From positions 1 through 16,047 of the forward strand of contig JAEOTU010000333.1 in assembly GCA_016839665.1 (NCBI GenBank): a DNA stretch of 16,047 nucleotides. Reading direction: 5' to 3'. The position numbers and the translations under genes were made by a program. This DNA comes from Candidatus Hodarchaeota archaeon (lineage in GTDB: Archaea; Asgardarchaeota; Heimdallarchaeia; Hodarchaeales; Hodarchaeaceae). The notes under the pieces were generated by a model. The model ran no database searches, was not told where the DNA came from, and saw only the letters and a list, made by a program, of their open reading frames with translations. Positions 1 through 16,047 of this stretch are shown in pieces (position 1 is the stretch's first letter; each line of letters begins with the position of its first letter).

Positions 1-1814
1 AAATCTTTTACAGTGTTACCTGAGGTATCATCAGCTACTAGAGTATAGTTATATACACCAAGAGGAAGACCACTTACATCTCTAATGATAGGAACAGCCG
101 ATTTCCAAGCATCAGACATAACTACAGTATCATTTCGATAAATGGTATAAAGGGAGGGATATGAATCTACCAGCGTCCACGACAATTCCTTGTTAAGAGC
201 ACCCACTCTATATAGAAGATCATCTGGGCTTTCTATTAACTGAGGTAAGTCTGATTCGATAACTGTAACCTTAACAACATCAGTAATATTGTATCCTGAT
301 TTCTCGGTAAGAACAATTTGATATGAATGTAATCCTATTGTAAGATTACTACTAACTGGGTAAATAATTGGTGAAGCATTTATCCACGTACCATTATTTA
401 TCATTAGACCTTCTTTATAGATTGTGTAATTTTTCGTTTGAGGGTCTGAGGCCAACCAAGAAATAGAATTACCGACACCTCCTTCTTCAATAATGAGATC
501 AGCAGGTCTGAGAAAACTTTGTAGGGCTACAATTTGCCCGTCAGCGATGTTTTGCGAGTATTGTACGTTACTACTTGTTTCATCAATATAGAACGAATTG
601 GAAACATTGGTGAAAGTATTCCAACTGATGATTGCATTATTGCATTCAGTAATGTATAATCCTACTGAAGATGTTACATTGGTAATTGTATTATTTCTAG
701 TAATCAGGTTATTGCTTTTATCAGCGAAAATCGCTGTTGCTTCGGAATTTGTTGAATTTAAGTTTAAAATTTTGTTCCATTCAATTGTTGATGCTTCACT
801 TGCTTCTAAACGTATACCAAAAAGAGTAAAGATTGAAGAAGTGGAAGAAAGAGATTGGATAGTATTGTTTCCTAGAATTGAGCTGCTACTCTGGTCTAAA
901 TACACACCATTAAGTGAAGATGGTGTATCTATCACATTAATATTGTTGAGAATTACTGAAGAGTGATTACTATCTTGCAGAAAGATACCAAACGAAGCTA
1001 GTGTTGTAGAGTTCAAATTAGAAATTGTATTGCTTTTTACTACCGCAGCTTGACTGTCTAAAATATAAATACCTTGAGAAGCCTTTGAGGTGACGTCATC
1101 TATTGAAGAATCATTAATATTAATATTTGGGGAAGATTCGACATAAATTCCATAATTATTACCATTAGAATCCAGATTTTCGATATGAGTATCTAGAATT
1201 TTTGAATCTGGACTGGAATTGATTAGAATACCGTGGGTGTCTCGTGGATAAAAGAAACTGGTGGTAGTAGAAGAAACTTGTTCAACAGTGTTCCCATCGA
1301 TCGTTGTATTTTGTGAATCAATTAAATGAATCCCTGAAACAGAGTTTGAGGTCGAAATGATGTTCAAAATATCATTATTATAAATTTGCGTATTTGGACT
1401 GTTATTAACCAATATAGCATAGTTGTATGAGGAATCTGTTAACCCAGAAATTAGATTATTCCTAATTATTGAATTTGGACTATCTGTTAAAGTAATACGT
1501 TGGTTCAGGCCATCTATAACGACCGCAGGGGAATTAATGATTGAAATTGATTTTATCATTTGATGAGGTATAAAATTTTCTACGAAATCCAAAGAATCAA
1601 GATGAAGTGACTGACCTTTTCCATTTAGATTGAGGTTCAAACCATCAGAATTGGGAAAAATTTCGACATCAATTTTCTGACCATTTGCTATGAATGTGTT
1701 TTCTATCGAATCAATTATGGTAATGGATTGAGGAAGCAGTGTCAGATTGTTAACACTTGTAAATGTGGCTAAAGTAACTAAGAGAGTAAAAATAACTGTT
1801 AACCTAAGTTTCAT
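1..1814 (-). CDS. Secreted right-handed parallel beta-helix protein with Ig-like domains (3'-partial)
   Basis: The frame is open from the ATG at 1814 to the window edge: 604 complete codons and no stop. The ATG follows AGGAG with 9 bases between. Residues 1-22 (MKLRL then a hydrophobic stretch through TFTS) are a signal peptide. Residues about 75-428 hold some 11 repeats of GI[YFHR]L-x-x-[DS]-S-x-x-x-x-I-x-x-N-x-I, 27-35 residues apart. This is the NosD/pectate-lyase-like parallel beta-helix pattern. Two Ig-like domains follow (about 437-522, and 523 to the edge), each with a W-x(3)-D...YTIY...W pattern; the first runs to VKVTV and the second is cut off by the window edge. Such helices occur in polysaccharide-active enzymes and in inert surface proteins. 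I see no catalytic Asp/His arrangement, so an enzyme call is not supported. It is last in the visible operon; any C-terminal anchor would lie beyond position 1. Confidence 0.92.
   Translation of the reverse strand, partial: MKLRLTVIFTLLVTLATFTSVNNLTLLPQSITIIDSIENTFIANGQKIDVEIFPNSDGLNLNLNGKGQSLHLDSLDFVENFIPHQMIKSISIINSPAVVIDGLNQRITLTDSPNSIIRNNLISGLTDSSYNYAILVNNSPNTQIYNNDILNIISTSNSVSGIHLIDSQNTTIDGNTVEQVSSTTTSFFYPRDTHGILINSSPDSKILDTHIENLDSNGNNYGIYVESSPNININDSSIDDVTSKASQGIYILDSQAAVVKSNTISNLNSTTLASFGIFLQDSNHSSVILNNINVIDTPSSLNGVYLDQSSSSILGNNTIQSLSSTSSIFTLFGIRLEASEASTIEWNKILNLNSTNSEATAIFADKSNNLITRNNTITNVTSSVGLYITECNNAIISWNTFTNVSNSFYIDETSSNVQYSQNIADGQIVALQSFLRPADLIIEEGGVGNSISWLASDPQTKNYTIYKEGLMINNGTWINASPIIYPVSSNLTIGLHSYQIVLTEKSGYNITDVVKVTVIESDLPQLIESPDDLLYRVGALNKELSWTLVDSYPSLYTIYRNDTVVMSDAWKSAVPIIRDVSGLPLGVYNYTLVADDTSGNTVKD
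540..1600 (-). repeat. Parallel beta-helix repeats in gene C
   Basis: About 11 degenerate units of roughly 27-35 residues carry a small hydrophobic strand GI-x-[LVI] followed by an Asn/Ser turn and a second strand ending N-x-[IV]. Clear copies begin GIHLIDSQ, GILINSSP, GIYVESSP, GIYILDSQ, GIFLQDSN, GVYLDQSS and GIRLEASE. Asn-rich turns form the ladder expected of a right-handed parallel beta-helix (PbH1-type repeats). Confidence 0.85.
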
Positions 1815-1828
1815 CTATAACCACTCCT
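1815..1828 (-). promoter_or_regulatory. Ribosome binding site of gene C, overlapping the stop codon of gene B
   Basis: AGGAG (1824-1828, minus strand) overlaps the TAG stop of gene B (1827-1829) and lies 9 bases before the ATG at 1814. The spacer repeats the GGTTATA string seen before gene B. This placement fixes the gene C start and again suggests coupled translation. Confidence 0.8.
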
Positions 1829-4800
1829 AGACCAACGCTCGTCTCCTTCGAATTAAAATAGCTGCAACAAAGGCTGCACTAGCGAGAACAACCGCTCCAG
1901 CGAATCCGATTAAGATTATTGTTCCCCAATCGATCTCAACCTCTACAACACGGAATAGAATCATATTATCTAACAGGACTGATCCGATAATTCTATCAGG
2001 TGAAGTCGGGTAACTATAATTAGTAGCTAATCCAAATATTTGAAACTCATACTCACCTTTCTTGAAAGAGATTTCTCCATGAGTCCAACGAGAAAATCCC
2101 TGGTATTTTAAAGTATAATTCTTACTCCAAGTAGCGGTCTGGTTCTGAGTCTGATTATTTGCTTGGCTTTTCTCCCGATATCGGAAATAGACCTCACCTG
2201 AAACCGTCGAGAGAGTCGTTAGGTTTAGCATCTCAAAGGATATTGGGCCTACAGAATAGTTTCCATTGTGTTGAGGTGATTTCATTTGGAGAGGACTGGT
2301 AAGACGGAGAACTGCTGCTAAAAATTCTTCTTCTGGTGTATATACATTGGGATCAGTTCCAATCCACAACTCTAAAGGATCACTATAACCGTCAGGTGTC
2401 CCATGGGTGCCGTTACGATCCGAATCGGCGGAGTAAGGCAGTGTACCATAAACAAGGATTTCATCGCCATCCATGAGACCATCGAAGTCTGAATCAGGAT
2501 TCCTATAATCAAGAAATCCGCCATGTTGAGTTCCATATGAATTGTAGGTATAATACTCGTCACCATCAGAGATAAGGTCATGATCGTAATCTCTTTCATA
2601 TCCATCTAGAATACCATTATTATTGGTATCGGGATCGTACGGATTATATCTAGGATCACCATCAGTCGCATTAATTTCTAAACCATCGGGCCAGCCATCA
2701 CTGTCACTGTCAGGATCGAGTGCATTAGTCATGTATCGAGGATTATACTCACTGATTCCAGCACCACCACCCGTCACATTAACAGCAGTAACTTCATCTT
2801 TATCTAAAAGACCATCACCATCAGTATCATTTTTCCTTGGGTCTGTCTTATGTGTATAAATTTCGTCCCAATCAGAAAGTGTATCGTTATCAGTATCATT
2901 AAGATCTGGCCTTAAATTGTTGTCAACTTCAAACTTGTCTCCCAGTTCATCATCATCGCTATCTGCATCTATTGGAGAAGTAAGCAAAGGATGGATGGAT
3001 TGATAACCAATGAATGGGAAAACTAAGATTTCAACTTCACTAATCACGAGTTCTTGACCATCACGAAGACCATCATCGTCTGTGTCATTATCAAGAGGGT
3101 CTAATGGAATATTGGCAAAATTAGGGATATCTCCTTGGGCAAGATATAATTCCCAAGTATCCATAATGGAATCGTTATCGGTGTCTATTGATCTAGGATT
3201 CGTACCATACATAATCTCGTCATAATCAGTCCATAAAAAGGTTGGATCCCCATTTTCATCTGGACTTAATATTGAATCAAAATCGGAGTCGATGTTATTT
3301 GGGTCTGTCTCATATATTAGAATCTCTGGTCCATCTCGAATACCATCTCCGTCGCTGTCGGGATTCATTGGATCTGTATTATATTCGAATATTTCATCTC
3401 GATCTCTGAGGTTGTCATTGTCCGAATCTTCATCTACAGGATCACTGCCATAAATATAAATTTCCTCGTAATCCCTTATTCCATCTCCATCACTATCCGC
3501 ACTGTGAGGATTTGAATGACTGAAGAACAATTCCCAATAATCCTCCACACCATCATAATCAGTATCAGGCATTCGAGGATTGGTGAAAAATACGAAAAAT
3601 TCGTCTCCGTCTAATACGAGGTCATGGTCTGTGTCAGGATCGCCTGGATTTGTGCCTAGCGCTAGTTCGATTCCATCAGGAAGAGAATCGCCATCTGTGT
3701 CCGGATTGGAAAAGCTTGTTGTCGTATTCCTTTCAGGAAGAAGCGTACCTTCAAGTCCATCAATTAATCCATCGTTGTCAGTATCTGCGTCTAGAGGATC
3801 GCTTGCAGGATCTTGACTTAACTCATATCCATCTGAATTTAAGAAAAAGCCAGCAGTAGCCACTCTTGATTTGGCACCAGTGTCACCATCGCTATCAGGG
3901 TTACAGGGATTTGTTTGAAAGAGAGAAGAAACTAGCTCAATAAAACCGTCAGGATCAACTTCAACAACCGTTGCTGCTATCCCCTTGACTTCGACGCCAT
4001 CTCTCATGTCACGCAAAAACACTCTAGATTCAGAGGTACCAGCAATAGAGCCATCATAGTACTGATAATAAGAATCATCATCAGTATCATTATCAAGGGG
4101 ATGAGTATAACCTTCGTTAAATAATAACATCGGTTCATCTGATCCTTTTGGGTAGTTGTTTGGATTACCCCACCACGGACCAAAAGCTCCTTCCTGGCCA
4201 TCTAAGAGGCCATCGTCATCAGTATCAGGATTCAAAGGATCTGTGTGATTATCATAAATTGTATCTCCGATTTGTACTGCTGTGACTGAGGGAGTGACCG
4301 ATGTTATATTCCAATCAGTAGTGATCTCGTAATAATCAGTGAGTCCGTCGTTATCTGTATCGCGTGAATTAGGGTCAGTCCTATAGAGTAAGACTTCTTC
4401 TCCATCTGAGATTCCATCCATATCAGTATCCACTACATTTGGATCAGCTCTGGGACTCCCGCCATACCACTCAAAGAAATCGCTCAACCCATCTCCATCC
4501 GTGTCATATTTATCTGGATCCGTCTTACTAACTTTCAACTCAAACTTATCACTCAACCAGTCGCTATCAGTATCATCTTTCCGAGGATTTAATGATGGGC
4601 TTCCAAATTCTATGTCATCAGACAATCCATCAAAATCGAAATCAAACCCTAACGCATTCTCTTCAAGGTCCGGATCATCTCGGCCAGGTGAGAGATCCAG
4701 TGGGAAACCTGGTGGTCTAAATTCAAAACCAATCTCGAAATCCCAGAAAAGGAATGTAAGGACCAGTTTTGCCCAAAAAACAATATCTAGTGTTATCATA

Positions 4801-7800
4801 AAGGGATCATTGTTACCGGGAGCAAGATTTTGGAAGAATATCAAATATATATCTAATCCAATTTTAAACGAAACGCCAACAAACCCTAAATCCAAACCGA
4901 TAGAAATAAATGCCCCTATTCCAAGTGTCAACGTTAAAGAGCCTTGCGCTGGTTCTCCATTATGAGCAGCTTTCTGGTAAATTTCAAAAGAGGCGGATAA
5001 CCACAAAGTAAGATCGAGCAGCTCTAGACCAATATATTGCATTGCTTTGGTAGCTGTGCCAGCAACGGCTGCTCCTCCCCCTGTGGCATACAATATGAGT
5101 TCTATGAGAGTGATGGTTTTACTGACTTTGAAACCGATGCTAAAATGCCACCCAAGAAGTTTCATAAATCCCTCGGAATCGAAACCGCCTGCTGAAAACG
5201 CAAATAATTGAATTGAGAATCCAATTGACCCCCATACTTCGAGATCCACACCTAGAGGAGCAAGTACTGCGGAAAGTATCCCTCCCTTTCCCGAATCTAC
5301 TGCTTCACAACCTAGTTCAGCCGAGAATATAGGTGCGAACGTTATAAATGTTAGAATCTTCTTGAAGAACTCTGGTATATCAAGTTTAAAATCGTCTATT
5401 CCTGTAAAGATTATGTCTTCTATCCAAGTCCTAAAAGCTTCATTGTCCCATTCAAATCCTAAACCAATCGAAAGATTATATGTTAATTTAATACCAATAA
5501 CATCTCCCCCAGGTAGCCCAATTGTACCTGCAATCGCCAACAGTGGTTTACCTGAAATTTTTGCAGCAATTTTGCCAGTAAATTCACTAATTAAATCCGC
5601 AAGAAATGACGCTAGTAGTGTTTTGAATTCTTTCATGATAAAGTCAATTCCTCCAGAGATGAGATCTTTAATCATGAAAAGATAATGAATCCCTTTTTTC
5701 GCCAGAGTAACAACAGAAGCTGATACACCTCGTTTTTCTAGCTCACTTCCAATCAGATCTTGAAGGTCCTGAGACGTCTGTGTTGCGTTGAATACTGCCT
5801 CTCCACCAAGAAGGTTTTTACCGATTATCCCTGTGAAAAGACTTTGAATTACACGCATTGTAGCGGTACCATTTACACCTAAAACTTTATCAAAGAAAAG
5901 GGTTCCAGCCTGCATGGCTACTGTACGTAAAAACGCCGTGATCGAATTCCCTTGACCAGAAATGAGTATCCCTGCTACGGCCAATACTAAATCTGTTAAT
6001 ACTTCAACAGCTTTCACTACTTTAGTGCTATTTGTTTTTTCAAGAACCCAAATGTTAAACAAGCCTACAACAGCATTTTTTGCGATCAAAACCATTTTTA
6101 ATTGTATATCTTTAAGTTCTTGAGGATCACTTTCTGCCAGACTTTCAGCGTTTCTTAGTTTACTTGCATCATCTATTAAGAGCAGCTGGGCTGCGGTATT
6201 AGATTTTCCGAGTGCTATAATCCCAAAAATAGTTTCAATAACGACAAAAAGGGCTTTTTCCTTCCACGCTGAAACAGTGGTATTGGTTGTAGTAAAATTG
6301 AGGAATTGTTTACTTACTCCCTTGATATCTGAAGCGAAAGGTTCTACCATGGTTGGTATCCAAATGGCTCCTAACCATGCCAAGGCGTCGATTAGTGTTT
6401 CTGCTTCTGGTGAAGTGGTAGGAAGATTATTGGCACTCATACTACTTGATATAAGTTGTTTCAGCAGGTTTCTATCCGACATTTGAGCTATTGAAGCATC
6501 AGCGAGAATACTTACTAGACTGGTCGCAAATGAAGAGGCCCGTGTGTCGCCAGCTGTAACGGTAACATCTAGCATGGGTAGGGCGGCGTTAATAAGCTTG
6601 GAGAATACTTTTTGGTTTGCTAGATTGGCATCAAGGTCAATAGCAGTGGTCCAATATTCTAATGCATTTCCCCCAAGACTGAAAGAGTCATAGAATGTCA
6701 TTGCTGCTCTATAAAATTGCCCAATTGTCGCGCAAGCGCTTTCTTCTTTTTCTGTTAATGTCTGATTAGACATTTTCGAGAACAAATATTCAACAACCTC
6801 GGGGATGGTATCCATTAAGTCATCAAAATCACCTGTAGCAAAGGCTTTGACAAGGGGCCCGAGAAATCCCATAAGTTTCCCCACTTCTTTCAAAATTGTA
6901 CTATTCGTTCCCCCGAGAACTTCACTCCACCAGCTATATGTGGTGGCATTAAGAACTTTGTCAATGGCGAATGTCACGACCACATTCAATGCGTTAAACT
7001 TTTTACCCTCTTCTTCCGCCTCTTTTTTCGCGTCAATCATGTCTTCAGCGAGGTCCACACCATTGAGCAATGTGTCCTTCAGAACTTTCATCATAGTCGT
7101 CATAATGGAAGAATTTCCGACAGTGGTGTTTTTCGTAAATTCCCCAATAACCGTGAAGACAGTTTCTATGACTGACCCGGCAAAATCAGTTATATCGTTT
7201 GGTTCGCCCCGAATTAAATAAAGTGCATCTACGATTAAAGGCAAAAATGGCTTAATTTTTTCCGATATAGGGGCATTGTCAGTAATCAATTTAATGAGAC
7301 TTTTGATGGTGCCCTTGACGTCTCCTTCTCCTTCGTCACGATTAGCGAACATAGTAGCAATATCCTTGATAGTATTACATATCCCAATTGCTGTCTCTGG
7401 ATCTAATCCCAATGCACTTCCCCCGAATTTAATTAATACACTTAAAATGGCATCGATCACCCCTGCTGCTGCACCATCCATTCCAGAGAAGAGTGGAATA
7501 TCAGATATTTTAAATTCTGCTTCCTCTTCTTCTACAGTACTGGCATTGATTATTCTTAACCTGGTATTAGGAGCAGGAATCGATTCTGTATCAAATCGTC
7601 TGATTGACTTATCAGGCATAACTTGATATGCGTCAGACCAATTCTCTTGCTTTTCTTCCCAAGCTTGGATTCTAGCTTGGACATCCTCCTCTCCTAACGG
7701 ATTAATTGCACGGCTAGGTTCTATTATTCCATTCAACAAACGGTTACAATTTTCAGCAAAATATTTGACTCCCAACATTCTGAAGTCTTCGCCCACTTTC

Positions 7801-8426
7801 TGGTATCCAAGGCCAGGATCTCCAGCAAGGATATCACCTATTTCCCAGAGATTGTAGAAGTAAGACTGTTCTGCACCAAGAACTGGACTTCCTTCAATAC
7901 GGATATTCGTTTGATTTACTGGAACATAGGTTCGTAGTTGATTAGTTGAGCCAGAACCAAAGACATGGTATGATGATGGATTGGAACTCAGAATTCTCGC
8001 GATCTCTCCCCATTCTATTATTTGATCACCTAAATAAACACCATCTATCTTACCATTAATGAAGTAGAGTTTTATCCAATAGTCTGCATCAAGTATTAAG
8101 GATCTAAGGTCATCCCAGTCTTTAATAGTAAAGATGTAGGTGTTATGATAGACCATGCTTGCTGATGCAAGGACATTAAACGCTGTTGCTGTTAAGATTG
8201 AATGATTTGAATCATAAAAGATCGCGATTTTCCTTGGAAGATCCCAACCGCGATATGTTTTATCAAATGTCGGTGGTTGGTTAGGGAGAGCATCAGCTTT
8301 ACGTGCTGCAACGCTACCAACGTTCACAAGTATGATAATTATCATAATTGCTGAAAAAACAATACTCCTAAATCGTGGTATCTTACTCATAGGAAGTATA
8401 TTAATGGTGTTTCTGATGTGACGCAT
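1827..8426 (-). CDS. Giant membrane-anchored surface protein with thrombospondin type 3-like calcium repeats
   Basis: Complete, 2199 residues. The start is the ATG at 8426, chosen for its AGGAGG 8 bases upstream; Met13 has no such site. Order: basic n-region and hydrophobic core (about 20-40), a signal peptide probably cleaved near VAA-RKADA; alpha/beta domain (about 65-235) with RKIAIF, GVYLGD and YHVFGSGS motifs; Glu-rich spacer; long region of hydrophobic and amphipathic helices (about 313-965); region of alternating strands (about 970-1240; for example IGLGFEW, FSIGFKV, FEIGFEF); about 26 Asp-rich repeats (1262-2028) of the form [TS]D-x-D-G-[LI]-x-D-x-x-E; Ig-like beta domain (about 2040-2160) with clustered sequons; transmembrane helix 2169-2192; RRRRALV end. 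The repeats are a known calcium-binding type in secreted proteins and probably form a stiff stalk. I do not recognise residues 65-1240. No enzyme is evident. An adhesin or scaffold role is inferred from context. Confidence 0.95.
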   Translation of the reverse strand: MRHIRNTINILPMSKIPRFRSIVFSAIMIIIILVNVGSVAARKADALPNQPPTFDKTYRGWDLPRKIAIFYDSNHSILTATAFNVLASASMVYHNTYIFTIKDWDDLRSLILDADYWIKLYFINGKIDGVYLGDQIIEWGEIARILSSNPSSYHVFGSGSTNQLRTYVPVNQTNIRIEGSPVLGAEQSYFYNLWEIGDILAGDPGLGYQKVGEDFRMLGVKYFAENCNRLLNGIIEPSRAINPLGEEDVQARIQAWEEKQENWSDAYQVMPDKSIRRFDTESIPAPNTRLRIINASTVEEEEAEFKISDIPLFSGMDGAAAGVIDAILSVLIKFGGSALGLDPETAIGICNTIKDIATMFANRDEGEGDVKGTIKSLIKLITDNAPISEKIKPFLPLIVDALYLIRGEPNDITDFAGSVIETVFTVIGEFTKNTTVGNSSIMTTMMKVLKDTLLNGVDLAEDMIDAKKEAEEEGKKFNALNVVVTFAIDKVLNATTYSWWSEVLGGTNSTILKEVGKLMGFLGPLVKAFATGDFDDLMDTIPEVVEYLFSKMSNQTLTEKEESACATIGQFYRAAMTFYDSFSLGGNALEYWTTAIDLDANLANQKVFSKLINAALPMLDVTVTAGDTRASSFATSLVSILADASIAQMSDRNLLKQLISSSMSANNLPTTSPEAETLIDALAWLGAIWIPTMVEPFASDIKGVSKQFLNFTTTNTTVSAWKEKALFVVIETIFGIIALGKSNTAAQLLLIDDASKLRNAESLAESDPQELKDIQLKMVLIAKNAVVGLFNIWVLEKTNSTKVVKAVEVLTDLVLAVAGILISGQGNSITAFLRTVAMQAGTLFFDKVLGVNGTATMRVIQSLFTGIIGKNLLGGEAVFNATQTSQDLQDLIGSELEKRGVSASVVTLAKKGIHYLFMIKDLISGGIDFIMKEFKTLLASFLADLISEFTGKIAAKISGKPLLAIAGTIGLPGGDVIGIKLTYNLSIGLGFEWDNEAFRTWIEDIIFTGIDDFKLDIPEFFKKILTFITFAPIFSAELGCEAVDSGKGGILSAVLAPLGVDLEVWGSIGFSIQLFAFSAGGFDSEGFMKLLGWHFSIGFKVSKTITLIELILYATGGGAAVAGTATKAMQYIGLELLDLTLWLSASFEIYQKAAHNGEPAQGSLTLTLGIGAFISIGLDLGFVGVSFKIGLDIYLIFFQNLAPGNNDPFMITLDIVFWAKLVLTFLFWDFEIGFEFRPPGFPLDLSPGRDDPDLEENALGFDFDFDGLSDDIEFGSPSLNPRKDDTDSDWLSDKFELKVSKTDPDKYDTDGDGLSDFFEWYGGSPRADPNVVDTDMDGISDGEEVLLYRTDPNSRDTDNDGLTDYYEITTDWNITSVTPSVTAVQIGDTIYDNHTDPLNPDTDDDGLLDGQEGAFGPWWGNPNNYPKGSDEPMLLFNEGYTHPLDNDTDDDSYYQYYDGSIAGTSESRVFLRDMRDGVEVKGIAATVVEVDPDGFIELVSSLFQTNPCNPDSDGDTGAKSRVATAGFFLNSDGYELSQDPASDPLDADTDNDGLIDGLEGTLLPERNTTTSFSNPDTDGDSLPDGIELALGTNPGDPDTDHDLVLDGDEFFVFFTNPRMPDTDYDGVEDYWELFFSHSNPHSADSDGDGIRDYEEIYIYGSDPVDEDSDNDNLRDRDEIFEYNTDPMNPDSDGDGIRDGPEILIYETDPNNIDSDFDSILSPDENGDPTFLWTDYDEIMYGTNPRSIDTDNDSIMDTWELYLAQGDIPNFANIPLDPLDNDTDDDGLRDGQELVISEVEILVFPFIGYQSIHPLLTSPIDADSDDDELGDKFEVDNNLRPDLNDTDNDTLSDWDEIYTHKTDPRKNDTDGDGLLDKDEVTAVNVTGGGAGISEYNPRYMTNALDPDSDSDGWPDGLEINATDGDPRYNPYDPDTNNNGILDGYERDYDHDLISDGDEYYTYNSYGTQHGGFLDYRNPDSDFDGLMDGDEILVYGTLPYSADSDRNGTHGTPDGYSDPLELWIGTDPNVYTPEEEFLAAVLRLTSPLQMKSPQHNGNYSVGPISFEMLNLTTLSTVSGEVYFRYREKSQANNQTQNQTATWSKNYTLKYQGFSRWTHGEISFKKGEYEFQIFGLATNYSYPTSPDRIIGSVLLDNMILFRVVEVEIDWGTIILIGFAGAVVLASAAFVAAILIRRRRALV
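2341..4643 (-). repeat. Array of about 26 thrombospondin type 3-like calcium-binding repeats within gene B
   Basis: Gene B residues 1262-2028 are built from units of [TS]D-x-D-G-[LI]-x-D-x-x-E followed by a short segment ending T-D-P-x-x-x-D. The regular units are 22-25 residues (for example the run at about 3230-3660). Others carry insertions of 10-40 residues, mostly between about 3780 and 4330 and near 2700-3060. Each unit supplies several Asp side chains of the kind that bind calcium in bacterial and archaeal TSP3 repeats. The DNA shows the same period as recurring ccatc...gtatc strings on the plus strand, but copies have diverged, so this is an old protein repeat rather than a recent DNA expansion. 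The count was made by eye. Confidence 0.9.
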
Positions 8427-8441
8427 GGTTATAACCTCCTT
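8427..8441 (-). promoter_or_regulatory. Ribosome binding site of gene B, embedded in the end of gene A
   Basis: On the minus strand the sequence reads AAGGAGGTTATAACC directly before the ATG at 8426. AGGAGG (8435-8440) is also the two Arg codons at the C-terminus of gene A, followed by its Leu codon and TAA stop. The same bases therefore encode the RRL end and serve as the ribosome site, which argues for translational coupling. The spacer and the end of the site form a perfect 10-base palindrome, GGTTATAACC (8427-8436). Confidence 0.85.
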
Positions 8442-11400
8442 GTAGAACGGAAAAGTTGTTTTTTCCGCTTAATAATGAAGATCAACGAGAGATTAACTAA
8501 TGAAACTAGAAATATCTGGACAAGAGGGTCAACAACCTCCGTTCTTGGTGAAGTATGTGTCGAACTCTCTGACTCATCTTGTTGCTGGTTCATAGGTGAA
8601 TGATCTCGAAATTCCGCGATTGCCGCTGCTCCGTATTGAGTCCCTATAATTCTTCCAGACGGGTCTGCAACTGCAATCATTCCTTTACTTAAAATTCCTA
8701 TAAAAGCAGGTTTTCTTGTTGAATCCACAAACCATTTTTTTCCTTTAATTATATTCTCAGGGAAAGAATGTGATTCAATAACATCTCCTTCGGATGTAAA
8801 GATTACTAGCGAGTTACCAACAACCATGACTAGTTCACTAGTACCAGTATTATCGGTATTAGCGAAATAATGATCATAAGAATCAATATAGTAGTTTGTA
8901 AACTCTTTAACAACGGTCATTAGGCTGCCATTATCTCTTAAGATCCTTGAGCCATTATTATGAGTTACCAATAGAATATCATTGTAAGAACCTTGATCAA
9001 CTACATCCCAAGATACAATTTGATGTGGGTCGCTCATTAACGAAGAGCCAGTAGTAATCTCACCGCTTGAAAGCCAGCTATATCGAGCTAGCTGTCCCCC
9101 GTCAGAAAGTAGATACACTTCTGTTAACTGATCCCTATTTTCAATTGTTTTAATCGAGATCCATTTTGTTCCCACAGTTGGAGCAGGGAAGGCTCCTCCA
9201 GGGATATTGGTTGAAGGTAGTTCAATCAATTCAGCTATTCCGTTCAAATCTAGAGCAACAATATGGGTGTCTATTCCAAGGTTTGAAACATCTAGACTTA
9301 CTACGCTCAAGGAGGTATAGTAAGCTGTGTTTGTATGAGACCAGATATAGGATTTAGAAATTGGATCGAAAATAGTAATTGTACCACTAATGTTTGAAAT
9401 AGCTTGGGACAATAATACATCAGAGCTTCCATCTAAAGATAATGACGTCACATTAGAACCACTTGAGGAAATCTTAGCCCAAATGTCTGTGCTTGCTCCT
9501 TCTAGAATATAAAGATCACTAGTATCAGCTTTGAAAGCAAGGCCATATTTTCCTGGTTCAATTTCTAAACCACAAGCGGTTATTGTTGAAAAAGTACTGA
9601 TCGAACTTCGCCAAATTTCTCCGTGATCAAAGCTCCTTAAAATCAGTGTTCCATTAGTAAAGGCAATAAAGAGTTTTTCTGCTCCATCATTTGTCACGGT
9701 AACTGGGAAAGCGAACGAAGTTTGTGTCTGTTCGGAATATAGAATCTCTGTTTTTGTTTTGACGGTATAAGTTTGGGAAGTAATTGTATTGGTTGCTTCT
9801 GTTAACATTCCTACAACTCTTGAAACGGGGCCGTTTCCATTTGGATAGGACACAGCAATGTATGTTTGTTTGGTGGAAAAATCATTTGCAATGTCTGCTA
9901 CAACAGTTAGCCCAGAATATTCTTGAACAGCCCAAAGTACATCAGCTCCGCTTGTAGATACAGCAAACAACCCTGAATTTGATGTATAAGTTAATATAAC
10001 TTCCTCCTCGTCGTAAGGTACAATTTCAAACTTAACCATGCTATCTTTGAAGTATCTCTGCCAAATTATAGAAGCACTGGTAACATCAACCACAAAAATT
10101 CCACTAGAATATCCATTTGAAGGAAAGAGAGAAGTTGAAGTTTCAAAGCTTGGAATTGATAAGATTATATCCTCTAAGAAATCATTATTCGCATCTTTTG
10201 AATATATCTCAAAACAACTCAAATCTATTGATCCTACAGTCGGTATTGTTTGATTTAATAGTAGATCCAAGGTATTCAGATTATAAACTTCTAAATGGTT
10301 ACTAGCTCCATAATTATCAAAAATTGCAATAGCAAAATCTAACTGAAGGTCACCATCGAAATCACCGAGTAAAGATTGTGATCTTATATCGAACTTCGTT
10401 AAGTGTGTTAAATTGAAAGATTTTAAAATAGAACCATTACCTCTCAAGATATTTACCTTTTTATAAGTGGAGAAATCGCTTGAGCAGACAGAGATTCTTG
10501 ATGTGTTTCCAATTTTGCCTACTGCAAGATCAAAATATTCAGTCGAATTAAGATCTGGCTTTACATCATTCCATATCATTTCACCAGATACTGGCTTAAT
10601 GGCAAATATTTTGGTTGTTGTTGCGATAATAAGGTCTGAAGTCGCATCGTTGTTGATATCAGCGAAAGCGTGATTATTTCTTGGATCTAATGAGGCCCCT
10701 GTTATCCAATAGCGTTGAGTTCCATTTAGACTTACCCCAAATACACCTTTGGAAGTAACTCCTATAATGATTTCACCCAAGGAATTGTTCAGGAAATAGA
10801 TTTTTCCAATTGACCCTGCGACTGGATAACGCCATAATAAGGAATCATGATGCAAGTTCCAAGCAACCAGTCCATTTCCATATTTTCCATCAGCAAGAAT
10901 AAGATCCAATTCACCATCTTTATTGACATCAACAAGAAGGTTGTCTATTGTCTTAGATGGCTGATTATAGTAAGAATCGGTCCCTGGAGTTCCTACACTT
11001 CCAGTATTCTCCCAATCAAGGTGGGAATCAGTATCTATAAGAGTTAATCTTCTTAGTGATGCATTCGTAGCTATTAACAATTGGTCTGGTACTTCCAAAC
11101 CCCAAGATACAGAGTCAATAATTACCGAATTACTATCTATCAATTTTAAGGTGTTTCCCGCAGGAATCATAGAAAGGTTATCACTAGAAATCCACTCCAA
11201 ATTGGGCGTAGGGGCTCCTGGGTATGATGCTTGAAACGAAGTAATATTCCGAGCTACTAGGAAATATCCACCAGCATTTATTGTACCACTTAAATAGAAG
11301 TTATTTTCAGAAGTGTAAAAATCAGAGAGTTGCCAACCCGCAAGGGAAACTGGAGAATTAGTCGGATTGTAAATCTCTACCCATTTGACATCAGATGAGT

Positions 11401-14400
11401 CTGAATGATCACAAAGTACCTCGGTAATCAATAAACTAGTATTATACAAAGAATATGAAGCATTACTATACAAACTTTCTTCAGTGATAGCATAAAGATC
11501 ATTTATTGGCTGTTCATTATCAACAACCTCAAAAATGAAGATATCTCCTCCTCTAACAGAGAAAATAAGCTCAGGCCAACCATTACCATTGGTATCCTGA
11601 ATCGACACTGCTCCTGTTTCTCTAGGCTTAGCTTCTGCAGGTGTGATATATTTAGCAAAGGTGCTATTAACTTGCTCAGGATGAAGTGAAATAAATAATG
11701 GAGGTTGGTATTGCCATTTTTGGAGGTAGCTATATGTCCCATCTGACTTCTGATTAATTTCAAGTAAAGAAACACGTGAATCATGTGAAATAAATAGCTC
11801 TAAACGAAGATCATTATCAGTATCGCCAATTGCAATATCTCTTACATTGAAAATATCAGTGTATTCGAACCATCCTCCCTGTTTTAACTGTCCTATCCAC
11901 TGTTGGGTTACCAAGTGGGAAGAATTGCCGTAAAAATCGACCAAATTCCCCGAATAATTCGGATCTGAATCATTTTCTATCAAGAATCGGGTTACAAATT
12001 GATAGTAAATTCCACCAGTATTGTCCATGGTAACACGAGGTCTAAACATCTGTCGATTAGAAACACTAGCATTTGCTCCTTTGGTTCTTAATGACCCATA
12101 AGCATTATAAACCTCTAAATTTGGATCGTCACTAAATAAGGCATATTGTTGAGACCAACTGTTACCATTATCACTGCTAAAGACTGAAACGACCTCTGAC
12201 ATTGACCCAGTTACATGTTCACAGGTTGCAAAGATACTATTGGGATCATTAGCCATATTAGTGGCCGAAACAAATTGATAATTACCTGTTCCAGATAATA
12301 TCTTTGAAAATCCTTGATTATGATAAGTACTATTCAACAGGGTGAAATAGATTTCGTCATTGATGGTTCCAAGAGAGTTCCTAGAATAACCAGAGAATAC
12401 AACCCCAATTTGTCCGTCAATTTCAAGTAAATCAATAGATGACAAAGTATAATTTGTATCTATGGCACTTGGAGCTGATATATCTGTGATAGTCCAATCG
12501 GTGGTATTGATTACATTTATAGAGAGATTTCCTGAGAAACCAGTATAACTTGGGGAACCTTTTTGGATATCATCCAAAACATACGCAACAATGAGTGAAT
12601 CTCCAATTTCTTCAATGGCAACATCTTTGTAGATTACATAATAATTATCTGACGAGGTCGAACCGTTTGTATTTTTGAGTGAATCTACTTCATAATACGG
12701 TGCAAGGGGAGTACCAGTCGAATCAAACTGTTGGATATTCACCGTTCGACCATAAATATCATTTGGGGATACATAGCCTGCTATCCACGCTACAGTAACA
12801 ATACCAGATTCGCCTTGAGTGATTGCAGGCCGTAACTCATACCCCAAAGGAGCTGAAGTATAATTTCCTTCTCCTGGGAGAACTGTTATCGATGTATTTA
12901 GCCAATCACTAAAAAGACCATCATTTAACGGATAAATACTTTCCATATATCCAATTGTTTGATTTCGTACAAGAGAAGTACCATTAGCTTCTAATGGCCA
13001 ATAAATTCCATTCCCCCAAGAAAGGGAATCTTCAACACCCGACAAACTATTCACTAGTTGTAATCCATCAACAGTACCGAGCTGTAAAGCAGTGACTGGG
13101 ATGAAGGGAGTTGGTGCACTTGGATAATTACTGTCAAAAACTGATTGATTAGAAGCAATTAGAAAATAGTCATATGCAGGAATAATCCCCCATAAAGACA
13201 CACTTTGGATGGATGTATTTAATTCCCAACCCACTAAGGAGACATCATACCAATTTGGATTGTATAGTTCAACCCATTGGTAGGTAGTGTTACCTGGATC
13301 AAGATCATTTTCATAATAGACCTCTGTGATAAGAATACTATCATCACGAGGCTCATATGAAAGGTCATCCCATTCACAAATATACCTGAAAAATTGTGTG
13401 CCATCAAAATCACCCCATTGCCCATCTGATGACTGCATTCCCGCATAATCGCCAGTACTTGGTGCAACAATCCAATTAGCTAATGTATCGGACTCACCTG
13501 TCACCCATAGCCAGGTGTCTTCAGTCACTTCATCAGTCAATCCAATCCAGGCAAAGGATGGGAATGAACCAAAAGCATTTTGAACAAAAGTATTCTCTTC
13601 CATAGTACTAAACGTGACCAGATGCCCCCCTTGTGCCTCACAATCAGCTTTCGCGTCAGCCCAATTCTTAAAGCTATCAATTAATTTGTATTCATGACCA
13701 TTGTATAAAAGTCCACCATGGTCTTTAAGTTCTCCCCTATCACGACTTATTTGATAGTTTGGATCTTTTATTGTCATTAAACTTCTTGGGTCTGATGTAA
13801 TCGAATAGAAAAGCCTACCGTCACCATAAGTGGTATTCTGCAAAACAACTCCAATATCTTCATGATTGTAAGGATCGTGATTATCCTCTTCAACACCATA
13901 GATTGAGAAGTAATTGTTTCCTCCTTGGAGCTGAACTAATTCGTGTGATCTTGGGGCAAGACCATTAGAGGACTGATAAGTATTAAAAACTGGGGAAATT
14001 ACTTTTTCTTGACCGTAGATTGGATCTGATGAGACATAGCTCATTAATGTAAACGAAAAATCATTTGGATCTTTATCGACTTCCCAAATATCTAAACCAT
14101 GACCATGAGCGATGATTAATTCCAATTTTCCGTCGTAGTTAGCATCTGTTGTCTCAAGATCATTAATCACAGTAGAATTTATAGTTGGGAAGTCATAGAT
14201 TTTCTGGATATTTCCATAATTTGAATCTAAGGCTAAAAGGAAACCCGTATCTACATTACCACTCGAATTCCGCCCTCCAATCCACAATTCAGTGTTACCA
14301 TTTTGATTTAAATCAGCAAATAGTAAAGCTCCAATATCTAAATCTGGATAGTCGAACGGATTTCCCGGAATATCATAAAATCCTAATCCAGAGATAGGTT

Positions 14401-16047
14401 GAAAACTTTCTAGCCAGCCAAGCTGAGGATCAAATCTTATTAGGAAAAGTACATTTTGTGCTGCAAAGGCGATCATCGGGCCTCTTCCATCAAAATCTGG
14501 AGTCAGTGTTATGGCTGAAAATTGGGTAATTGAAGAATCATTAAAGAATTCTTGATGGTCTTTCTCAAAAATTAACTTAAACTCATCGTTAAATCCAGTT
14601 GCTTCAAAAACATAAAGACTCAATGCAGCAGTCAAAATAAACTCTTCATTTCCATCATCATCATAATCAAAACCACTAACAAGTAAATTTCCATGATCAA
14701 AAATTGTTTTCTTAAAATCCCCAGATACTCCTTCCAAATCCTGAAATTTATAGGGAGAATAAGTGGTTTCTTCAGTATGATTTAAGTCTTGGGACTTCCA
14801 CGCTCTTTTATAGGTGTTTTCAGCGAGATGTTCGAATACAATGAGATTATTGTCAAAATCACTTACAATAATCTCACTATTATTATCCCCATCTAAATTC
14901 AGGGCGGTAGTGAGAGTTAACGTCCAATCCTTTAACTCTTCTGTGTTTGTCCATGATTTCAGGATTGAATAGCCGAAATTGATTGCATCAGGAGGTGATT
15001 GTCTTAGATTAACTTCTAATTTCAATAGCTCAGGGTTTGTTCCAATAATAAAGGCCGTTTGTTGATCTACTTCAGCGACTAAATTTCTCAAGTGTTGTGG
15101 TGTGGTTACACCATTCCAAATCCACAGAGACTCTGCTGATTTCTCAGTTGAATTTGAAGGAATAACAACACCAGCAGTATAATTATTGAACCTTAAAGAT
15201 CCATCAGTCGTTGGATTTTTCATGACATAAGCGTTCCTAACCCATTGAGGGTTCGTTGAGGTTCCCAGGTTTTCAAAGAAGTCCATCCCGTAACGTAAAT
15301 CCCCAGATCCACGGCCGTATGAGTATGTAATATCATAATCGCCATCTTGATCATAATCCCATGCATTTGGCGAAAAGATGGGATTTGAAGGGGCACGTTC
15401 ATTAAGTTCTTTAAAATAATTGAAATCAAACTTAAAACTTGGACTGGTGCTATTACCAATATTCCATAAGAGGGCTAGTCTTCCATTAGATATAACAATA
15501 TCCTGTAAAGTATCATTATCAATGTCTGCTATAGTAGCTGAGGGATAAGTAGTCGAATCCGCTAGAAAATTGAACATCTGATTATCTATATCACTTAAAA
15601 CGGTAAAGTACGGAGATGGTGCATAATATTCCCATGGTTCTGGAATAGTAGGGGACTGTAAATAATAAATTTTTGGTAAGAGAGATGCATCATAAGTGGT
15701 TGGTTTTATGAAAGAACCCTTAAACCAGGGAAAGATAATTAGCTCATCAAAGTCATCACCCCACTGATAAAGATCACCAAAAGCGGTTGTTGGAACTCTA
15801 TTTGTACTAGTTAAATATTGATTAACAAACCGAAGAATATCTTGAAGACCACCCGTATTTGGTATCAATGCACCAGTTTCAATATTATAGGCTCTAATTG
15901 TACTATCGTCAGCACTTGTGACAACGAATTCTCTAGAATTTGGGTTGTTGACCCTACTCATATCAGATATACTTAAATGATGCAAATCCGTGAGATCTGG
16001 AGACGTCCCTGAGTTAAACTCTTTCGTTTCACCAGTTTTGTATCTCC
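8429..16047 (-). CDS. Giant membrane-anchored surface protein with FG-GAP repeats, C-type lectin-like and lamin-tail-like domains (5'-partial)
   Basis: The frame is open to the window edge, so the N-terminus and signal peptide are missing. The TTG at 15985 is an internal Leu. In-window length is 2538 residues (residue 1 at 16045). Visible order: about seven FG-GAP-like motifs of the D-x-[DN]-x-[DN]-G type (about 155-645); C-type lectin-like domain (777-894; C802, WIGL at 833, C890); lamin-tail-like domain 1 (900-1051); BNR/sialidase-like strand region (1060-1380) with one Asp box at 1290-1297; two more FG-GAP motifs; lamin-tail-like domain 2 (1535-1687); further FG-GAP/PQQ-like blades (1690-2460); polar Gln/Ser/Glu/Thr linker; transmembrane helix 2507-2525; basic tail from KRKK. 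Such domains usually bind calcium, glycans or proteins outside the cell. No catalytic site is evident. It is the first gene of the visible operon, 2 bases before the next. A surface adhesin or receptor is the inferred role; the ligand is unknown. Confidence 0.93.
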   Translation of the reverse strand, partial: RYKTGETKEFNSGTSPDLTDLHHLSISDMSRVNNPNSREFVVTSADDSTIRAYNIETGALIPNTGGLQDILRFVNQYLTSTNRVPTTAFGDLYQWGDDFDELIIFPWFKGSFIKPTTYDASLLPKIYYLQSPTIPEPWEYYAPSPYFTVLSDIDNQMFNFLADSTTYPSATIADIDNDTLQDIVISNGRLALLWNIGNSTSPSFKFDFNYFKELNERAPSNPIFSPNAWDYDQDGDYDITYSYGRGSGDLRYGMDFFENLGTSTNPQWVRNAYVMKNPTTDGSLRFNNYTAGVVIPSNSTEKSAESLWIWNGVTTPQHLRNLVAEVDQQTAFIIGTNPELLKLEVNLRQSPPDAINFGYSILKSWTNTEELKDWTLTLTTALNLDGDNNSEIIVSDFDNNLIVFEHLAENTYKRAWKSQDLNHTEETTYSPYKFQDLEGVSGDFKKTIFDHGNLLVSGFDYDDDGNEEFILTAALSLYVFEATGFNDEFKLIFEKDHQEFFNDSSITQFSAITLTPDFDGRGPMIAFAAQNVLFLIRFDPQLGWLESFQPISGLGFYDIPGNPFDYPDLDIGALLFADLNQNGNTELWIGGRNSSGNVDTGFLLALDSNYGNIQKIYDFPTINSTVINDLETTDANYDGKLELIIAHGHGLDIWEVDKDPNDFSFTLMSYVSSDPIYGQEKVISPVFNTYQSSNGLAPRSHELVQLQGGNNYFSIYGVEEDNHDPYNHEDIGVVLQNTTYGDGRLFYSITSDPRSLMTIKDPNYQISRDRGELKDHGGLLYNGHEYKLIDSFKNWADAKADCEAQGGHLVTFSTMEENTFVQNAFGSFPSFAWIGLTDEVTEDTWLWVTGESDTLANWIVAPSTGDYAGMQSSDGQWGDFDGTQFFRYICEWDDLSYEPRDDSILITEVYYENDLDPGNTTYQWVELYNPNWYDVSLVGWELNTSIQSVSLWGIIPAYDYFLIASNQSVFDSNYPSAPTPFIPVTALQLGTVDGLQLVNSLSGVEDSLSWGNGIYWPLEANGTSLVRNQTIGYMESIYPLNDGLFSDWLNTSITVLPGEGNYTSAPLGYELRPAITQGESGIVTVAWIAGYVSPNDIYGRTVNIQQFDSTGTPLAPYYEVDSLKNTNGSTSSDNYYVIYKDVAIEEIGDSLIVAYVLDDIQKGSPSYTGFSGNLSINVINTTDWTITDISAPSAIDTNYTLSSIDLLEIDGQIGVVFSGYSRNSLGTINDEIYFTLLNSTYHNQGFSKILSGTGNYQFVSATNMANDPNSIFATCEHVTGSMSEVVSVFSSDNGNSWSQQYALFSDDPNLEVYNAYGSLRTKGANASVSNRQMFRPRVTMDNTGGIYYQFVTRFLIENDSDPNYSGNLVDFYGNSSHLVTQQWIGQLKQGGWFEYTDIFNVRDIAIGDTDNDLRLELFISHDSRVSLLEINQKSDGTYSYLQKWQYQPPLFISLHPEQVNSTFAKYITPAEAKPRETGAVSIQDTNGNGWPELIFSVRGGDIFIFEVVDNEQPINDLYAITEESLYSNASYSLYNTSLLITEVLCDHSDSSDVKWVEIYNPTNSPVSLAGWQLSDFYTSENNFYLSGTINAGGYFLVARNITSFQASYPGAPTPNLEWISSDNLSMIPAGNTLKLIDSNSVIIDSVSWGLEVPDQLLIATNASLRRLTLIDTDSHLDWENTGSVGTPGTDSYYNQPSKTIDNLLVDVNKDGELDLILADGKYGNGLVAWNLHHDSLLWRYPVAGSIGKIYFLNNSLGEIIIGVTSKGVFGVSLNGTQRYWITGASLDPRNNHAFADINNDATSDLIIATTTKIFAIKPVSGEMIWNDVKPDLNSTEYFDLAVGKIGNTSRISVCSSDFSTYKKVNILRGNGSILKSFNLTHLTKFDIRSQSLLGDFDGDLQLDFAIAIFDNYGASNHLEVYNLNTLDLLLNQTIPTVGSIDLSCFEIYSKDANNDFLEDIILSIPSFETSTSLFPSNGYSSGIFVVDVTSASIIWQRYFKDSMVKFEIVPYDEEEVILTYTSNSGLFAVSTSGADVLWAVQEYSGLTVVADIANDFSTKQTYIAVSYPNGNGPVSRVVGMLTEATNTITSQTYTVKTKTEILYSEQTQTSFAFPVTVTNDGAEKLFIAFTNGTLILRSFDHGEIWRSSISTFSTITACGLEIEPGKYGLAFKADTSDLYILEGASTDIWAKISSSGSNVTSLSLDGSSDVLLSQAISNISGTITIFDPISKSYIWSHTNTAYYTSLSVVSLDVSNLGIDTHIVALDLNGIAELIELPSTNIPGGAFPAPTVGTKWISIKTIENRDQLTEVYLLSDGGQLARYSWLSSGEITTGSSLMSDPHQIVSWDVVDQGSYNDILLVTHNNGSRILRDNGSLMTVVKEFTNYYIDSYDHYFANTDNTGTSELVMVVGNSLVIFTSEGDVIESHSFPENIIKGKKWFVDSTRKPAFIGILSKGMIAVADPSGRIIGTQYGAAAIAEFRDHSPMNQQQDESESSTHTSPRTEVVDPLVQIFLVSLVNLSLIFIIKRKKQLFRSTRRL
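10165..11830 (-). repeat. Second cluster of FG-GAP/VCBS-like repeats in gene A, interrupted by a lamin-tail-like domain
   Basis: Motifs DTDNDLRLE (near 11810) and DTNGNGWPE (11585) come before the second lamin-tail-like domain (about 10985-11440). DVNKDGELD (10915), DINNDATSD (10645), DFDGDLQLD (10350) and DANNDFLED (10185) follow it. Each leads into a hydrophobic strand. Blades further downstream (to about 8700) are more like PQQ repeats and lack the calcium loop. Confidence 0.8.
14110..15530 (-). repeat. First cluster of FG-GAP/VCBS-like repeats in gene A
   Basis: Seven motifs with calcium-loop spacing are visible: DIDNDTLQD (near 15500), DYDQDGDYD (15345), NLDGDNNSE (14880), DYDDDGNEE (14660), DFDGRGP (14490, lacking the last acidic residue), DLNQNGNTE (14305) and DANYDGKLE (14130). 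Each is followed by a hydrophobic strand, as in integrin-type beta-propeller blades. The segment at 15870-16000 looks like a further blade without a calcium loop. Seven blades would close one propeller. Confidence 0.85.

Follow-up and report, generated by a model that had tools for sequence, protein, structure and literature searches.

P1 and P2, two giant genes lying side by side on a 16,047-nucleotide stretch of Asgard DNA (positions 1 to 16,047 of the forward strand of contig JAEOTU010000333.1, GenBank assembly GCA_016839665.1, Candidatus Hodarchaeota archaeon; hereafter the window), are a real, conserved surface pair of Asgard archaea that is undescribed in the literature we searched. The window consists of three adjoining minus-strand frames (P1, P2, and P3; Table 1), but the conserved unit is the P1–P2 pair, and the trio is the elaboration of one clade. 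We consider it reasonably probable that P1 and P2 join in equal numbers to form an Asgard complex for recognition or coating that is anchored in the membrane, and which would be tied to the cytoplasm via P3 and a fourth protein, P4, in a Hodarchaeales-type clade.

P1 and P2 are neighbors in every assessable locus

Gene maps drawn for 75 stretches in three sets (35, 20, and 20) place P1 and P2 next to each other in 48 (19/35, 19/20, and 10/20), i.e. in all 48 that can be assessed. Of the other 27, 16 belong to the first set, where a contig end cuts P2 in 13 loci, 2 are pieces of flank, and 1 has unreadable bases; in the second set, P2 sits at a contig end in 1, and in the third, bases are unreadable in 5 and P1 is cut or fills the contig in 5. 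A lone P1 or P2 flanked on both sides by unrelated genes was found in none of the 75 mapped stretches. Among the 27, two P1 genes with a cut 3' end and no P2 upstream (L100 and L111) fit either the P1–P2 order or a lone P1, and some profile matches lie outside the 75 (e.g. in genomes G041, G161, and G196, and one P1 in G204).

The order of the two genes is variable. P2 precedes P1 in 40 of the 48 loci, P1 precedes P2 in 6 (the window, L001, L002, L053, L072, and L107), the rarer type and the one to which a third protein is added, and the two are fused in the remaining 2. The fused polypeptides (L073 and L074) have 4,881 and 4,836 residues, with no unknown residues in their frames, and where the two proteins meet they retain two helices spaced by a charged linker, so that both ectodomains would be outside. 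Apparent one-frame P1 loci in which the neighboring part was read as N were excluded and not counted as fusions. Both orders occur within one genome in G002, G035, G036, and G042, and a tree of the P2 beta domain (29 rows) separates the order types A and B with 100/100 support, the order having been observed in 4 of the 13 A rows (with P2–P3 in one more) and in 11 of the 16 B rows, and the others being labeled by similarity.

The original prediction had all three proteins synthesized at a fixed ratio for a single surface assembly, and took orthologues regularly found apart as evidence to the contrary. For P1 and P2 no such separation appears, and joint assembly is well supported by the 48 loci, two of them fusions; for the trio as a general unit, such support is lacking.

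Distribution among Asgard genomes

We searched 227 genomes of the Asgard phylum. Because many hits of a whole-P2 search (53/58 genomes) involved the TSP3 repeats only, counts were made instead with a profile of the P2 beta domain (E <= 1e-20, at most seven candidates scored per genome), and for P1 with an N-terminal profile (E <= 1e-40). These match 39 and 41 of the 227 genomes, respectively, and 35 genomes have both, vs about 7 expected by chance. Twenty-one of the 39 P2-positive genomes lie outside the Heimdallarchaeia-type class of G002. The genomes matched by P2 only are G001, G004, G041, and G196, of which G001 does hold a P1 that is cut at its N end (L001). Among the six matched by P1 only, a partial P2 adjoins P1 in three (L066, L095/L096, and L099), two are unreadable there, and one meets a contig end.

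The 104 P2-related proteins listed include members from Lokiarchaeota, Thorarchaeota, Hermodarchaeota, and Candidatus (Ca.) Lokiarchaeum ossiferum, the last with a relative of 2,076 residues (P0046; 52% identity over 98%). Bacterial-named matches among those listed cover 6–7% of the P2 query. One protein from a metagenome-assembled genome (MAG) labeled Methanobacteriota (P0104) covers 98% of the query, and reflects either a mislabeled bin or transfer.

Coupling geometry and operon extent

Three adjoining genes totaling more than 5,300 codons and spaced by 2 and 12 bases had been proposed, both internal ribosome sites overlapping the preceding gene. This layout was confirmed: the frames sum to 5,341 codons, 2 bases separate P1 from P2 and 12 separate P2 from P3, and both sites overlap as described, that of P3 by only two bases. 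Close spacing extends to other loci. The gap lies between -20 and +20 bases at 21 of 26 junctions, and the other five, where the earliest possible start was taken, overlap by 64–124 bases, which is probably a longest-frame artefact. At 21 P2 ends from P2–P1 loci, four of which are also among the 26 junctions, raw counts of the ribosome-site motif within 20 bases upstream of the stop are 21/21 for GGAG and 20/21 for GGAGG.

Two related loci come from named genomes, L001 from a Hodarchaeota MAG (93% identity) and L002 from a Heimdallarchaeota MAG chromosome (70%). Among 18 related proteins (query included), the named sources are Hodarchaeales/Hodarchaeota or Heimdallarchaeota, bar one labeled Odinarchaeota and one from Kariarchaeaceae. 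Over the parts shared with L001, identity is 86% for P1, 93% for P2, and 79% for P3, and judged by dN/dS (0.18, 0.08, and 0.23, respectively) all three genes look to be under purifying selection. In L002, the operon encodes P1 (3,162 residues), P2 (2,224), P3 (846), and P4 (911), with 4-base overlaps at the P1–P2 and P3–P4 junctions and 12 bases between P2 and P3; L001 has the same four genes, with a P4 of 651 residues that starts at TTG and overlaps P3 by 20 bases. Both of these relatives thus carry at least four operon genes, P4 falling beyond the window, and the two end genes of the window itself are cut.

Domain architecture of P1 and P2

Pfam finds FG-GAP, one C-type lectin domain, and two lamin-tail stretches in the window P1, and in the L002 P1 both PF13517 and PF01839 (FG-GAP) score above cut-off. 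In P2, it finds TSP3 repeats only, and a test based on hydropathy places hydrophobic segments at both termini. The lectin/propeller, calcium-repeat, and beta-helix assignments of the original prediction are thus matched by Pfam families, the two lamin-tail stretches having been overlooked; the calcium-repeat stalk is present as well, covering only about the last third of P2. One further P1 gene is broken into two overlapping frames (L077:3582-18099), through an assembly error or as a broken gene, in a locus with 10 N.

Searched against solved structures up to E 1, the P2 profile matched only in its C-terminal repeat-bearing part (a biofilm surface protein and EF-hand/OmpA-type chains). A second solved-structure search returned EF-hand-type chains, mostly designed helical ones, the long chains PP507 and DP221, and a tailspike domain (best E 1.6e-4). 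A possible protease function of the N-terminal P2 domain (caspase/legumain/CHAT-like) was set aside, as inspection by eye gave no clear sign of a conserved catalytic His and Cys. Three proteins that are P2-like over 38–54% of the query (P0093, P0094, and P0097) are annotated with PKD-type domains, an indication that the P2 body takes part in domain shuffling. No NCBIfam model is matched at its cut-off by P1, P2, or P3, and scans of the window for Rfam families at gathering score and for tandem DNA repeats were both negative.

P3, P4, and other third partners

P1, P2, and P3 occur together in four loci (the window, L001, L002, and L053), and P2–P3 in a fifth (L054). The three-gene order that the original prediction proposed to look for in relatives was thus seen in those four loci. 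In the first 55 stretches mapped, no P2–P1 locus carries P3 or P4 next to the pair on the same strand. For this reason, and since L053 has P3 without P4, we rejected both proteins as core members. Two observations are contrary to a clean picture of P2–P1 loci free of P3 and P4, i.e. an opposite-strand 266-residue protein (L073:1915-2715) beside the fused P2–P1 gene of that locus, which matches the P3 Ig part at 72 bits, and a 526-residue protein in L086 with 24 bits to P4.

The beta-helix is found in P3 of the window, L001, and L002. Window P3 passes the Pfam Beta_helix and broader NosD models, and scores 42 vs a cut-off of 300 for the NosD maturation protein TIGR04247 as the cut window protein. 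The third protein of L053 and L054, a P3 homologue by 86 and 101 bits, has a short lysine-rich tail and no Pfam beta-helix match. P3 in L001 and L002 ends in a membrane helix followed by a tail of 88 residues, and helix and tail recur in 14 of 17 P3-like proteins (query included), one being cut and two distant ones lacking them; for P0031, the tail was judged from the sequence end, the automatic segment choice having fallen on an earlier segment. Across 9 of the 14, mean identity is 73.7% for the tail, 53.6% for the beta-helix, 56.1% for the Ig part, and 54.3% for the helix, and the tail is more identical than the beta-helix in 36 of 36 pairs.

P4 is a tetratricopeptide repeat (TPR) protein (PF13424 at 301.1 bits in L002 and 268.5 in L001, cut-off 30.1), with no membrane segment by hydropathy. 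The P3 tail, which lies beyond the membrane helix and is predicted to be cytosolic, is probably TPR-like in close relatives: it has Pfam matches to the same family, albeit below cut-off, and resembles P4 (53 and 67 bits), a likeness that suggests a stacking of like repeats. The proposal that all three proteins are secreted thus fails for P3 in these relatives, whose conserved tail, probably cytosolic, is followed by a predicted cytosolic TPR protein.

A third, shorter locus type combines a complete P2-like protein of 1,535–1,609 residues with a complete P1-like protein of about 1,950. Four loci of this type carry a different third protein of 606–624 residues, hydrophobic at both ends, mutually alike, and unmatched by P3, with fn3 at E < 1e-4 in three of the four and above cut-off in two. 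The one in L103 has Cys and His stretches that are protease-like by eye. Beside the L002 operon lies a convergent gene (L002:21968-25810); its product, a surface protein of 1,280 residues, combines SBBP propeller repeats with DUF7948 and Ig-like domains.

Table 1. Features of the window and of related loci (coordinates are window positions unless a locus is given)
Feature	Position	Strand	Remarks
P1 open reading frame (ORF)	8429..16045	-	2,538 codons, 5' end open at window edge
P1 FG-GAP repeat (propeller)	15329..15526	-	PF13517, E 6.6e-9
P1 C-type lectin domain	13373..13669	-	PF00059, E 5.5e-15
P1 lamin tail domain, better of two stretches	11099..11440	-	PF00932, E 1.8e-23
P1 C-terminal membrane helix, then short basic tail	8471..8527	-	hydropathy 2.37
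AGGAGGT, ribosome site for P2	8434..8440	-	within last codons of P1
P2 ORF	1827..8426	-	2,199 residues, complete; TSP3 surface protein, core partner of P1
P2 N-terminal signal/membrane segment	8307..8363	-	hydropathy 2.65
P2 Rossmann-like alpha/beta domain	7743..8240	-	residues 63-228
P2 long helical region	5757..7472	-	residues ~319-890, model partly of low confidence
P2 amphipathic beta domain	4719..5540	-	residues 963-1236, barrel-like in model
P2 TSP3 calcium-type repeats	2247..4499	-	residues ~1310-2060, limits by eye; PF18884, E 4.9e-17
P2 C-terminal membrane helix	1863..1919	-	hydropathy 2.55
AGGAG, ribosome site for P3	1824..1828	-	only two bases common with P2 stop codon
P3 ORF	3..1814	-	604 codons, 3' end open; beta-helix and Ig-like
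P3 right-handed beta-helix	858..1418	-	PF13229, E 6.6e-19
Third gene of shorter locus type	L103:12839-14680
Third gene of shorter locus type	L105:628-2448
Third gene of shorter locus type	L108:116-1942
Third gene of shorter locus type	L109:14890-16764

A proposed membrane-anchored complex and its alternatives

Under the reading that we favor, P1 and P2 would both be exported and held by their C-terminal membrane helices, and be made at about 1:1 because the second start sits on top of the first stop. The TSP3 repeats of P2 would serve as a calcium-dependent stalk close to the membrane, topped by a large body of alpha and amphipathic beta domains from its N-terminal part, and the propeller, lectin, and lamin-tail modules of P1 would most likely bind glycans or neighboring surface proteins, the two proteins together making a tall coat or contact unit of about 0.5 MDa. 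In the Hodarchaeales-type clade, P3 would contribute a beta-helix/Ig ectodomain and dock the TPR solenoid of P4 through its tail, so that the cytoplasm could receive, or provide an anchor for, contact at the surface.

Several observations weigh against such a complex. It is a prediction from genes, and domain types of this kind suggest binding rather than prove it. Matches in only 39 of 227 genomes mean that it is no general Asgard coat. P2 has internal stretches above the hydropathy threshold (residues 321-339, 804-822, and 1167-1227), and may cross the membrane more than once. An N-terminal signal on P1 is clear in several relatives, but the L002 protein stays below the hydropathy threshold, and the window lacks this end of P1. 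The lectin and lamin-tail modules of P1 vary as well, the window part having one lectin and two lamin-tail stretches and L002 two lectins and one lamin tail. In the P3 tail, PF13424 scores 24.8 and 22.7 bits vs the cut-off of 30.1 (E 2.6e-5 and 1.1e-4), and P3 and P4 are seen in few loci, which puts the cytosolic wiring outside the core.

The pair could instead be an ordered, S-layer-like lattice, i.e. a structural coat and not a binding device. SlaA and SlaB are the S-layer proteins of Sulfolobus. Two large membrane-anchored proteins with calcium-type repeats would suit a lattice, S-layers consist of one or two proteins (PMC5744192), and the Sulfolobus system likewise has exported, membrane-anchored proteins that cover the cell. 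Compared by description, however, most loci have a P1 and a P2 that both exceed 2,000 residues, two genomes have them fused, and the pair includes a propeller and in some cases lectin domains. Moreover, no highly ordered S-layer is reported for Ca. L. ossiferum (PMC9834061), the source of the P2 relative P0046, and the restricted spread also argues against a lattice, which we judge rather unlikely.

Two other alternatives turn on the P2 beta domain. Its strands alternate hydrophobic and polar residues (P < 0.05 in 9 of 10 tested, P = 0.067 in the remaining one), the hydrophobic face being 75% ILVFM and the polar face 29% charged, and four strands have hydrophobic faces of 13–15 residues, long enough for a membrane span. 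The model (pLDDT 72.8, pTM 0.49) aligns best with outer-membrane beta-barrels (CymA, TamA, and autotransporter domains), a likeness that is suggestive only. In Foldseek, no match reaches E <= 0.001, and among the rows shown TM is at most 0.27 query-normalized and 0.42 target-normalized.

One of these alternatives makes P2 a lipid handler, in which the helical region would wrap around the hydrophobic face of the beta domain and so create a cavity or route for lipids, in the manner of large lipid transfer proteins, with P1 as the docking partner. The amphipathic strands agree with this, a large helical region directly precedes the beta domain, and microsomal triglyceride transfer protein ranks 2 and 11 in Foldseek. 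Yet the rank-2 match is weak (probability 0.16, TM 0.12, rmsd 21 A), it is absent from the 50 rows shown of the second structure search (an absence compatible with such a match), and the helical and beta parts, whose packing is presumed, were modeled separately; we regard a lipid handler as quite improbable. The other alternative, a true membrane beta-barrel that spans the cell's own membrane, that of a vesicle, or that of a partner cell and makes a pore, is doubtful to a still greater degree, given the moderate model confidence, the lack of a Foldseek match at that threshold, and the charged polar face. Outer-membrane barrels also differ in their setting, as these hosts are single-membrane archaea, including the cultured relative (PMC9834061). 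Surface genes commonly cluster in genomes, which counts for unrelated genes that merely adjoin, but 48 of 48 assessable loci keep the pair, including across the switch in order, and two fuse it, so this last alternative is extremely unlikely and close to refuted for P1 and P2, though not for P3 and P4.

Relation to known systems and significance

Other comparisons are partial. P2 matches the adventurous gliding lipoprotein CglD (NF033765) at 127.1 bits, with the best stretch in the TSP3 part, but far below the family cut-off of 400. Integrin alpha and the integrin-like families of Asgards (PMC9258230) share FG-GAP, a membrane anchor, and a possible cytosolic link with P1; by contrast, the architecture here is another one and the cytosolic link sits on P3, the Asgard families being considered here by description. 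The Aloposons of Heimdallarchaeum and the tandem giant genes of Thorarchaeota are likewise adjacent giant genes in Asgards, but Aloposon genes lie on mobile elements at tRNA sites (PMC8813620); this comparison is also by description, and the Thorarchaeota genes may overlap with ours. Excerpts of PMC10307638 (which has an author correction, PMC12960242), PMC12077186, PMC8813620, and PMC9258230 do not describe the P1–P2 pair, and no title among those listed in searches of open-licence papers does so, although it may be in print elsewhere.

A bolder version of our reading counts P1–P2 among the complex surface structures of Asgards, with a barrel or lipid-conducting beta domain in a P2 made 1:1 with its lectin/propeller partner and, in Hodarchaeales, a complex wired through the P3 tail to a TPR scaffold. 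We know of no single-membrane archaeon with a barrel or lipid-conducting beta domain like that of P2, and hold this version to be unlikely; if true, it would give prokaryotes a contact receptor that has a partner inside the cell. Hodarchaeales have been proposed as the sister group of eukaryotes (PMC12077186), a placement that is contested (PMC12395588). Ca. L. ossiferum has a single membrane and complex surface proteins, which the excerpt of PMC9834061 does not name. Because the pair persists within and outside the Heimdallarchaeia-type class, is fused in two genomes, and has a P2 relative in a cultured organism (P0046), P1 and P2 are good named candidates for the still unassigned structures seen on the surface of Asgards, which among archaea are the closest to eukaryotes.
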